Assembly: GCA_910574865.1 (NCBI GenBank) | Contig: CAJTDN010000026.1 | Location: forward strand, 1 to 39,658 | Origin: Lachnospiraceae bacterium | GTDB taxonomy: Bacteria; Bacillota; Clostridia; Lachnospirales; Lachnospiraceae | Reading direction: 5' to 3' | DNA length: 39,658 nucleotides | Shown here: one piece after another, positions 294-34,757 of the stretch | Layout: each line of letters starts with the position of its first letter | Position numbering within the stretch: the first letter of the stretch is position 1 | Program-made: the position numbers and the translations under genes | The notes under the pieces: model-generated | Databases searched by the model: none | Told to the model about the DNA's origin: nothing | The model's input: the letters and a program-made list of their open reading frames with translations, nothing else

Positions 294-568
294 GCGTCGG
301 TGTACGGAGGGCAACACGCCTCAGCCCATGTGATTTCAAGGGTTTTCAGCGTCATCTTCAATCGGCGTACGTCCTTGTACGCCTCATTCATCTTCCTTGA
401 AAACCCTTGAAATCCCTATGGGTGAGGTCGCAGAGTCGTGAAGAGGCATATCCCCCCCCTTTCAAGGCACTTGAGCGACGCGTACAAGGACGTACGCGGA
501 GTGAAAGTAACGACGAAAGAGGGGAAATATGCCCTTCATCGACCGTGTTGCCTTCTGTACACCGACGC
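294..568 (+). mobile_element. 275-bp TA-flanked palindromic element, copy 1
   Basis: Full copy of a repeated non-coding element. The ends are inverted repeats starting GCGTCGGTGTAC and continuing, with two mismatches, to about 27 bp. TA dinucleotides flank both sides (292-293 and 569-570). The element has two inverted 92-nt arms (294-385 and 477-568) around a 91-nt core. Each arm pairs with the adjacent core half: a 17-bp stem beginning GATTTCAAGGGTTTTCA, and a second stem beginning GGCATAT that is imperfect in this copy because of an extended C-run. No transposase is encoded, so it would have to be mobilised in trans (MITE-like, inferred). It lies between an XRE remnant and a TetR remnant. 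Confidence 0.85.
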
Positions 569-4031: not shown

Positions 4032-4142
4032 GCAATCTATTTTATCTTTTTCATATCTATTAAAATCATGCTTTCCGCGCCTTCCTTCGACAAGGGTGAA
4101 GAAAAACTTAAAATGCAGCCCGCAGGTCATAAGCAGAAGTTA

Positions 4143-4183
4143 GCGTCGGTGTACAGAAGGCAACACGGTCGATGAAGGGCATA
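4143..4183 (-). mobile_element. End fragment of the 275-bp palindromic element
   Basis: Positions 4143-4183 match one terminus of the 275-bp element, beginning GCGTCGGTGTAC next to a TA at 4141-4142. Identity stops after GGGCATA, where the full copies continue into the C-run of the second stem. The fragment ends 7 bp from the FtsX stop codon. It is either a deletion product of a former full copy or a recombination scar. Confidence 0.75.
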
Positions 4184-10097: not shown

Positions 10098-10372
10098 GCG
10101 TCGGTGTACGGAGGGCAACACGCCTCAACCCATGTGATTTCAAGGGTTTTCAGCGTCATCTTCAATCGGCGTACGTCCTTGTACGCCTCATTCATCTTCC
10201 TTGAAAACCCTTGAAATCCCTATGGGTGAGGTCGCAGAGTCGTGAAGAGGCATATTTCCCCCCTTTCAAGGCACTTGAGCGACGCGTACAAGGACGTACG
10301 CGGAGTGAAAGTAACGACGAAAGGGGGGAAATATGCCCTTCATCGACCGTGTTGCCTTCTGTACACCGACGC
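10098..10372 (+). mobile_element. 275-bp palindromic element, copy 2
   Basis: Full 275-bp copy in the same orientation as copy 1. Both long stems are perfect here: the 17-bp stem and the 19-bp stem GGCATATTTCCCCCCTTTC with its complement. The left flank is TA (10096-10097) but the right flank is TT (10373-10374), so this copy lacks a matching target duplication. Genes on both sides are cut at the element edge and are unrelated, suggesting that this copy marks a deletion or recombination junction. Confidence 0.85.
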
Positions 10373-10600
10373 TTGCATATAATGTGAAATATCATTCAAA
10401 TCATGGAGGCCAATCAAAATGTCAATAATTGGTTTTGCATAAATGGAATGAATCGCAGTGCTTCCCACATGCTGGATGTCAACAGCGGCATTTCCGAAAA
10501 GTTGCTTCAATTCCAAAATTACATTTTCGGCATTTTTATCCCATTCCTCCTGATGGGATAAAAGCTCTACGCTTCCTCTTTTTAATCCTAATCGGACCAT
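10373..10600 (-). pseudogene. GrpB-family protein, truncated by element copy 2
   Basis: From the ATG at 10600 the frame encodes MVRLGLKRGSVELLSHQEEW, then IQHVGSTAI and KPIIDILIG, the N-terminal signature of GrpB/UPF0157 nucleotidyltransferase-like proteins (HVGST....KPIID). About 76 residues remain of a usual 170-180. The frame then runs into the element and ends after ten foreign residues. It starts 14 bp after the acetyltransferase pseudogene, so both were once one operon. Confidence 0.8.
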
Positions 10601-31148: not shown

Positions 31149-32232
31149 CTAAGCGTTTAGGTATTCCTCAAGACAAATCTCTGCTTCATAGATTTCCTTG
31201 GCCGCTTCCTTACCCACATAGCGGTAATGCCAAGGTTCATAGCTGATACCCGTTATATCGCTCTTATCTGTTGGATAACGGAGAATGAAACCGTATTTCC
31301 AGCTGTTTTTCATCAGCCACTTCTGCACCTCTGTATTTTCCTGACGTTCATCCAGTACCTGATTTGCCACATCTACAATATCCAATGCCAGACCAAACTG
31401 GTGCTCACTTGTCCCCGGTACCGCCACAAGCTCGCCGGCCGCTGATTCTGCGCTTTCCTGAGAATACCCTTGCGCCAAATGCTCATCCACCTTGTTCTTA
31501 TAAAGCTTCTTTTGCTTATCCATTGTTCGGTACGAGGAACAGATCAGCGGATTCAGTCCTGCCGCCCAGCAGTCATCCATCATGTCCTGCAAATCGGGAT
31601 AGGCTCTCTCATCAATAGCATGTCCGTTTTTAAGCTGTGTTAAGGACGGGTTATGACTCTCCGGCAGAAGGTTCCATTTGTTTACCAGCGTCAGGTTCCA
31701 TTGCGTTTTATTGACATTTGAATATGTACTGTCTCCACCCTTATTTTTTATATATGCACCGCTGGTTTCCAGATTAGCTGTCAAAGTTGTACCACTATCT
31801 TTTGCCCACAACAAGTCATCACCTTTATGGAGCAGATTTTTTCCTGCTACGGTAGCGTCGGTGTACAGAACGCAACACGGTCGATGAAGGGCATATTTCC
31901 CCCCTTTCGTCGTTACTTTCACTCCGCGTACGTCCTTGTACGCGTCGCTCAAGTGCCTTGAAAGGGGGGAAATATGCCTCTTCACGACTCTGCGACCTCA
32001 CCCATAGGGATTTCAAGGGTTTTCAAGGAAGATGAATGAGGCGTACAAGGACGTACGCCGATTGAAGATGACGCTGAAAACCCTTGAAATCACATGGGCT
32101 GAGGCGTGTTGCCCTCCGTACACCGACGCTAGCAATCACTACGACATAGGTGAAAAGCAAGCCCAAAAACATTACAGCAGGGGAGTTCAAGCGTCTTTTC
32201 TTTCTTCTTCTCTTATTCTGTTGTTGGTTCAT
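31149..32232 (-). pseudogene. VanY-type D,D-carboxypeptidase split by element copy 3
   Basis: The 5' part (32232-32132) encodes MNQQQNKRRRKKRRLNSPAV and a membrane anchor FLGLLFTYVVVIA; the 3' part (31852-31149) encodes the catalytic domain with SEHQFGLALDI (metal His and Asp) and EPWHYRYVG. The 275-bp element at 31855-32129 lies between. Deleting it with one TA gives an uninterrupted frame (VVIA-TVAGKNLL). VanY enzymes remove the terminal D-Ala from peptidoglycan precursors at the outer face of the membrane. The 3' part could still be made from a GTG inside the element. Confidence 0.88.
31855..32129 (-). mobile_element. 275-bp palindromic element, copy 3 (inside vanY-like gene)
   Basis: Full copy in reverse orientation relative to copies 1 and 2, flanked by TA at 31853-31854 and 32130-32131. 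Both stems are intact. One terminal repeat has a single change (GAAC for GAAG). The insertion point within codons of a recognisable gene defines the element borders and the TA duplication. Confidence 0.9.
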
Positions 32233-34482: not shown

Positions 34483-34757
34483 GCGTCGGTGTACAGAAGG
34501 CAACACGGTCGATGAAGGGCATATTTCCCCTCTTTCGTCGTTACTTTCACTCCGCGTACGTCCTTGTACGCGTCGCTCAAGTGCCTTGAAAGGGGGGAAA
34601 TATGCCTCTTCACGACTCTGCGACCTCACCCATAGGGATTTCAAGGGTTTTCAAGGAAGATGAATGAGGCGTACAAGGACGTACGCCGATTGAAGATGAC
34701 GCTGAAAACCCTTGAAATCACATGGGCTGAGGCGTGTTGCCCTCCGTACACTGACGC
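34483..34757 (-). mobile_element. 275-bp palindromic element, copy 4
   Basis: Full copy in the same orientation as copy 3, with TA at 34481-34482 and 34758-34759. One end has a substitution in the terminal repeat (CACTGACGC for CACCGACGC) and the C/G-run stem has one mismatch. It lies between the SRPBCC gene and a truncated serine hydrolase. Confidence 0.88.

Follow-up and report, generated by a model that had tools for sequence, protein, structure and literature searches.

The 275-bp repeat found four times in the window, by which we mean the whole 39,658-nucleotide stretch of DNA analysed here (contig 26 of an 82-contig draft genome of 5,334,347 bases), is in our judgement probably a non-autonomous, TA-duplicating element, which represents the two-arm branch of a phylum-wide family, is mobilised in trans and has kept an inner core for the sake of a folded single-stranded form. 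"Phylum" denotes throughout the grouping of the searched genome set together with named Lachnospiraceae relatives.

According to this reading, the repeat would transpose as DNA, inserting at TA with duplication of that dinucleotide, and members of the family would consist of a terminal stem that varies and of long arms, one or two in number, each with the same core. Movement would most likely proceed by a cut-and-paste or copy-paste mechanism, through a transposase supplied in trans that would recognise the terminal repeats and prefer targets resembling ANGN-TA-NCNT. Conservation, covariation and wobble bias point to a folded single-stranded form as being needed for the element's own spread, and the core would most likely act as the recognition structure for the mobilising factor or for a host factor.

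Results

Four copies of a palindromic element in the window

Alignment and an end-motif search bore out the first-pass annotation in its description of four copies of exactly 275 bp and a separate 41-bp end, with terminal inverted repeats and with two copies pointing right (copies 1 and 2) and two left (copies 3 and 4). The positions are collected in Table 1. Specifically, the end motif TAGCGTCGGTGTAC, with up to three mismatches allowed, occurs 11 times in the window compared to 1.23 expected, a count that 0 of 100 shuffles reached, and nine of the 11 matches are the known element ends; one window copy carries GCGTCAG in place of GCGTCGG at one end. As had also been noted, TA abuts the left end of all four copies and the right end of three, the exception being copy 2, where TT is found. 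Internally the four copies are near-identical, and the identical flanks expected of a segmental duplication are not seen, since the DNA flanking the four copies does not align. No open reading frame of at least 80 amino acids lies wholly within any window copy, in agreement with the earlier statement that the repeats have no gene of their own. Compared to 200 dinucleotide shuffles, the fold of the element reaches z values of -13.3 (DNA) and -14.6 (RNA).

Table 1. Positions of the element copies, of the parts of copy 1 and of the remnant in the window.
Feature	Position	Strand	Details
Copy 1, full element	294..568	+	275 bp; TA on both sides
Copy 1, outer inverted-repeat stem, left half	294..318	+	Columns 1-26 of alignment A2, pairing with 254-279
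Copy 1, arm A: variable stem, conserved loops, apical hairpin	319..427	+	A2 columns 27-135 and fold
Copy 1, arm A, conserved core	337..408	+	Match to model R1 (itself an R1 training sequence)
Copy 1, arm A, apical hairpin GGCGTAC-GTCCTT-GTACGCC	364..383	+	A3 helix 2, 99% of cells paired
Copy 1, arm B, in inverse orientation to arm A	435..543	-	A2 columns 143-253
Copy 1, arm B, conserved core	454..525	-	Match to model R1 (itself an R1 training sequence)
Copy 1, outer inverted-repeat stem, right half	544..568	-	A2 columns 254-279
Remnant with one end only: 41 bp from the right end	4143..4183	+	TA at 4141-4142
Copy 2, full element	10098..10372	+	275 bp; TA on the left, TT on the right (10373-10374)
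Copy 3, full element	31855..32129	-	275 bp; adjoins a PF02557-type reading frame
Copy 4, full element	34483..34757	-	275 bp; between a Polyketide_cyc2 frame and a frame with a partial PF00144 match

The reading frame directly adjacent to copy 3 is of the D-alanyl-D-alanine carboxypeptidase type, and the presumed N-terminal piece on the other side of that copy gave no Pfam match. To the right of copy 2 lies a GrpB-type frame, searched on the minus strand at 10388-10600, whose match is confined to positions 2-58 of the 159-position profile. Given this truncated match and the lack of TA on the same side, a later deletion may have occurred there.

Copies and remnants in the host genome

The high genomic load predicted from the window was found in the genome itself, which holds at least 37 full-length copies in 5.33 Mb, a lower bound obtained by scoring 40 of 138 first-look candidates. 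The DNA search returned 118 matches, composed of 37 full 275-position matches, three long partial ones and 78 arm-to-arm cross-matches, and the 37 full copies measure 274-277 bp at 95-100% identity. The end motif with up to two mismatches occurs 218 times in the host genome, compared to 25 for the reversed control, and the exact extended end 90 times compared to none. Four of the at least 37 copies lie in the one 39.7-kb contig analysed here, where about 0.28 would be expected if the copies were evenly distributed over 5.33 Mb.

In addition, we examined 52 stretches around ends outside the obvious full copies; they cover most of such ends among the first 100 motif matches listed, with a few extra. 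These included 41 solitary ends, defined by having no partner (up to two mismatches) within 300 bp, at least one of which (L059) does have a partner with three mismatches; 27 resemble the right end more closely, 11 the left end, and three are undecided. Among the 27 right-end remnants, 10 end at 44-61 bases. The rest comprised 14 short pairs, 20-196 bp in length, and a single full copy. The remnants were found by their exact ends, so their age can hardly be read from them; most simply, the short and one-ended forms would be deletion products of an unstable palindrome. At four places (L066, which is the same place as L026, and L022, L029 and L077), ends abut end to end with one TA in common, which suggests a preference for insertion beside existing ends.

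Insertion at TA and target preference

The first-pass annotation had proposed a mobile element that duplicates TA, to be checked by looking for empty sites elsewhere. One clear case with a single TA was found, in another species, by a comparison covering one genome per species. In this case, the flanks of copy G000:C2:398329 were joined around a single TA, and the product aligns with the homologous gene of L089 at 71% identity in 370 columns; the site itself is ungapped, and the only gap, of a single base, lies over 100 columns away. This gap-free alignment with one TA supports TA duplication. Insertion at TA with duplication of TA is supported by this one empty site in another species, and we infer it for the other copies. 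A second junction-spanning match, L173 against L148, was gapped and weak and was set aside.

Of 89 candidate elements, three were dropped, and 83 of the 86 kept have TA on both sides, in a boundary search that itself scored TA and included some elements more than once. There were 73 distinct sites with enough flank, and the target preference was computed on 71 of these: G occupies position -4 in 26, C position +2 in 28, A or T position -6 in 60 and A or T position +4 in 62. The preference is therefore symmetric and palindromic around TA, roughly of the form ANGN-TA-NCNT, and together with the empty site and the unrelated flanks it supports the proposal of a mobile TA-duplicating element. Across the 73 sites, an open reading frame of at least 150 amino acids was obtained with one TA only at six, with two TA only at six, with no TA only at three and with several versions at eight, while none of the three versions gave one at 50. 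Searches for related sequences gave no match among phages and plasmids, nor, using exact patterns, among viral contigs.

Two-arm relatives share a folded structure

Comparison of the consensus with related Lachnospiraceae, as the annotation had recommended, revealed diverged relatives of 271-275 bp across this group. By DNA similarity, 10 of the 145 genomes near the host match, the host included; of the nine others, four hold near-full copies at 70-78% identity and five hold short matches. A hairpin-pattern search in named genomes found at least 103 stretches, mostly in Lachnospiraceae, with carriers including Blautia, [Clostridium] citroniae, Lachnoclostridium, Merdimonas and Extibacter.

RNAalifold, applied to 26 two-arm representatives (271-275 bp), yielded an outer stem and two arms, and the same core is present in both arms in opposite orientation. 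In this set, 66 of 96 base pairs have changed on both sides with pairing kept. Paired cells amount to 94.9% of 2,496, compared to 76.6% after shuffling (the observed value being reached in 0 of 500 shuffles), and the covariation score is 0.503, compared to 0.170 after shuffling and at most 0.096 with the partners slid.

A conserved core in one-arm and two-arm elements across the phylum

The core consists of two conserved unpaired loops around a short hairpin. We built from it a covariance model, R1, using 43 sequences drawn either from the window's family or from genomes labelled Lachnospiraceae or other gut Clostridia, and took matches at a cut-off of E 0.001. With the host included in both counts, R1 matches occur in 25 of 398 genomes of the phylum, belonging to 19 genera, and in 40 of 299 genomes of the family. 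In many cases the elements of different genera have unrelated ends. Loops resembling TGCGTTGTCGTCAATCG and CTCATTCCTCCGCCTTG are nevertheless found in most, and the letters of the core hairpin covary.

At 29 loci (L194-L222), the extent of the element was measured by self-complementarity, centred on the R1 match. Twenty-two are one-arm loci spanning 155-170 bp (about 163 bp). Three, namely L206, L212 and the host's own L218, have two arms and measure 274-281 bp; in L206, which comes from another family, R1 matches both arms. The loci L213 and L215 measure 118-127 bp, and the extents obtained at L216 and L217 are not meaningful. The loops are diverged in L206, L208, L211, L212 and L214 and shortened in L213 and L215-L217. 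The window's own genus also has one-arm elements, with ends GGAACTGT, and at eight such loci, inspected by eye, the same 3 bp (TAA, TTA, ATA or CAG) flank the element on either side; locus L038, the ninth, is nearly identical to one of those eight.

The earlier annotation, then, overlooked the membership of the repeat in a phylum-wide family with a conserved inner core and two architectures, features that go beyond what an ordinary species-specific MITE predicts. It is conceivable, if rather unlikely, that the folded core and not the ends defines the class, as a two-loop hairpin formed by one strand as single-stranded nucleic acid and read phylum-wide by a common mobilising or host factor, the ends having been exchanged or having diverged until no longer recognisable. 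If so, the core rather than a transposon end would confer mobility, and the two-arm elements would carry it on both strands.

Covariance models of Rfam gave only weak, below-threshold and chance-like matches on the elements. Two matches to the Clostridiales-1 RNA (RF01699), at L032:900-1035 and 1156-1308, lie beside a family member; as an identity for the element, this RNA was ruled out because it folds differently. A match to the T-box leader at L203:1324-1645, which with 55.4 bits stays below the gathering threshold of 93, encloses an element at 1454-1614, as if the element had been placed inside a T-box.

Some further observations concern the core outside the main set. At four loci labelled Deltaproteobacteria, Syntrophaceae or Proteobacteria (L132, L137, L138 and L152), hairpins with the same apical core were seen, three of them with ends like GGCTGYTGAAAAACG. 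A link to these hairpins is a lead, R1 giving only 21.7-24.6 bits at the four loci that had been preselected by the hairpin pattern. In genome G349, some one-arm copies (L223, L239 and L240) appear by eye to carry an extra hairpin-like segment nested in the core, and two copies of a derivative (L226 and L238) have, again by eye, a short segment in place of the hairpin and loops of the core. The occurrence of this derivative at two sites makes it possible that the core is dispensable, and the core-less form may have multiplied. Finally, the 40 bases at L089:2768-2807 match exactly the arm core of the elements in that genome. They stand where the host homologue is longer by about 215 bp, with short matches at both joints, which looks like a template switch.

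Search for a mobilising transposase

Four transposase families were covered in the host genome: IS630 DDE_3, Y1, DDE_Tnp_1 and IS30. A partner of the IS630/Tc1-mariner type in the same genome, as the first-pass annotation had envisaged, did not emerge, IS630 DDE_3 (PF13358) having 0 matches in the 82-contig draft. Ten DDE_Tnp_1 matches were found, none of them bounded by element ends, and one broken match (L185) lies near a full copy. One intact IS30-type gene is present in the draft, without element ends. With four families covered in an 82-contig draft, the enzyme may have been lost, be missing from the assembly or be of another type.

The search was extended to two near-complete genomes. 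In G349 (one contig), the 68 places listed, read by eye, include no convincing case of two inward-facing ends as far apart as in a transposon, one pair being 2.8 kb apart with three mismatches in each end; in G007 (three contigs), no convincing transposon-sized pair was seen, but only three short elements and two lone ends. The 3.5-kb stretches beside six long partial copies, whose open reading frames were listed and four of them searched in Pfam, contain no fitting partner. A lone end by a gene start (L125) was considered as well, and the adjacent 465-amino-acid frame encodes a putative membrane transporter, not a transposase.

These results bear on an alternative, namely that the repeat is an ordinary MITE cut down from an IS630 or another TA-duplicating IS, whose parent has been lost or is absent from the draft, and that the core is inherited end DNA. 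The repeat does show the general features of MITEs, being small and gene-free, with terminal inverted repeats, target-site duplication and many highly similar copies at unrelated sites, and a precedent has been proposed in the account of RUP and IS630-Spn1 (PMC2229807). To this extent the MITE model of the first-pass annotation stands, TA duplication included; the part that assigned an IS630-type mobiliser is not supported, as no IS630-type transposase with matching ends was found in the 82-contig draft. Draft assemblies often lack multicopy transposons, and many of the carriers are drafts. However, no IS with the same ends was found in G349 and G007 either, and an inner core conserved phylum-wide under unrelated ends is unexpected for leftover transposon DNA. 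We therefore regard descent from such an IS as unlikely.

Strand bias of the stems

Mispairs of the wobble type were counted to see which strand or molecule is under selection. On a fixed strand, the two-arm elements show 76 G.U and 77 A.C; by part, in the orientation of the core, the G.U:A.C counts are 21:28 for arm A, 35:34 for arm B and 21:14 for the outer stem, and when the arms were recounted pairwise the values were 13:20 and 39:25. This balance indicates that the form present in the window has no consistent strand preference, and selection on one strand is not supported there.

The one-arm stems behave differently. On the pyrimidine-loop strand, 28 elements show 100 A.C versus 25 G.U, with 26 of the 28 in the same direction, counts that include related copies, several of the elements coming from the same genome. 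The A.C mispairs are spread over 36 positions and the G.U mispairs over 16, one of which accounts for eight of the 25 G.U. In the core pairs of 30 R1 matches from L194-L222, A.C occupies 42 and G.U six of 507 cells. A second one-arm set, made of the 32 of 40 further loci with stems of at least 45 bp, gave 103 A.C and 55 G.U, with 22 elements in the same direction, five opposite and five ties; the eight loci left out for their shorter stems gave 14 and 8. Eight of the 32 loci come from genomes already used, and L312 is the element of L197; without those eight, the counts are 72 versus 44 in 24 elements (16 same, five opposite, three ties). The wobble bias of one-arm stems is thus repeated in the second set, where it is weaker. 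An excess of A.C on the pyrimidine-loop strand means that the purine-loop strand tolerates wobble better. This would be expected of RNA or of single-stranded DNA and hints that a folded single strand is under selection.

We also compared 36 one-arm loci with their neighbouring genes: 14 are co-directional with both, 11 opposite to both, eight mixed and three lack a gene on one side. The lack of a clear orientation gives no sign of a role in host transcripts, and it speaks against cis regulation of adjacent genes at these loci.

The bias could mean that the core is a functional RNA, one strand being transcribed, folded and selected as RNA, whether acting in trans as a small RNA or belonging to a mobilising complex. 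Conserved unpaired loops with covarying stems would suit such a molecule, as would the wobble bias on the purine-loop strand of the one-arm elements, weaker as it is in the second set. However, the bias is absent in the two-arm class, to which the window's copies belong, the elements have no orientation relative to genes and no credible Rfam family match, and G.T pairs in single-stranded DNA would be expected to produce the same bias. We take an RNA function to be improbable.

Mutation without selection offers another explanation, in which one arm is copied onto the other by template switching at quasi-palindromes, and covariation would not reflect selection. Quasi-palindrome correction is an established mutational process, and the mismatches of the two-arm elements, being without strand preference, agree with it. 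This explanation is quite doubtful, as it leaves unaccounted for the facing loops that stay unpaired and conserved, the strand bias of the one-arm stems and the narrow element lengths. Least probable by far is a REP/RAYT-like system, in which a tyrosine (HUH) transposase moves hairpins as single-stranded DNA: the strand-biased folding of one-arm elements and the inverted double arms recall REP doublets as described in PMC3733652, but TA duplication and near-perfect terminal inverted repeats speak against it, and the host draft genome has three partial Y1 matches, with no element ends or core within their loci.

Discussion

Relation to known repeat families

The elements are best read as trans-mobilised and non-autonomous, in the manner of ERIC and Correia repeats. 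They are a variant of a kind already known, that of small TA-flanked palindromes, mostly without a demonstrated mobiliser; what sets the family apart from known repeats is a core found phylum-wide although the ends are unrelated, the existence of two fixed architectures and, in the one-arm form, stems with a strand bias. No description of the family was found among the open-access papers searched.

The ERIC repeats, also called IRU or RU-1, are described as small palindromes with terminal TA and target duplication, found in many related enterobacterial genera (PMC2229807; PMC10969869), and a 2007 review saw no experimental support for a transposase behind them (PMC2229807). The likeness lies in small palindromic, TA-ended repeats spread over many related genera. 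As described, ERIC differs in its length of 127 bp (here 271-275 or about 163 bp) and in its hosts, Enterobacteriaceae and Vibrionaceae, and a core common to elements with unrelated ends, as found here, is absent from the passages describing ERIC in those two sources (PMC2229807; PMC10969869). Correia or NEMIS repeats likewise have terminal TA, 24-bp terminal repeats and two size forms, but are set apart by their description as elements of 107 and 155 bp in Neisseria (PMC2229807). RUP of Streptococcus pneumoniae shares the TA target, the absence of genes and the multiple copies; its description gives 107 bp and ends like those of IS630-Spn1 (PMC2229807), whereas no IS with the element ends was found here in the host, G349 or G007.

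Among the Bacillus cereus repeats, described as mobile, 100-400 bp long and mostly chromosomal, bcr1 resembles the present family in having tens of copies per genome (PMC6542083). It differs by a TTTAT motif, a proposed site-specific recombination and its restriction to one species group in that account (PMC6542083); here, the ends abut TA instead of TTTAT, and TA is duplicated. GTAG- and CGTC-tagged REPs are also widespread hairpins, often in inverted pairs, and the CGTC type is described as lacking a dedicated transposase (PMC3733652). They measure 20-40 bp and have a tag motif at one of their ends, and the definition given there does not include long terminal repeats accompanied by TA duplication (PMC3733652); the present element has 275 bp with long terminal repeats, and the host draft genome contains no tyrosine transposase gene flanked by the repeat.

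ERIC and Correia repeats were described long ago, the 2007 review still finding no experimental evidence of how they move (PMC2229807), and the many diverged branches sharing one core now make the question of the mobiliser testable. Recognition of a folded single strand likewise becomes testable, by comparison and by binding assays, and some of the gut carriers are cultured. In addition, the repeat is found at the ends of contigs in many assemblies, and it lies within or next to interrupted genes.
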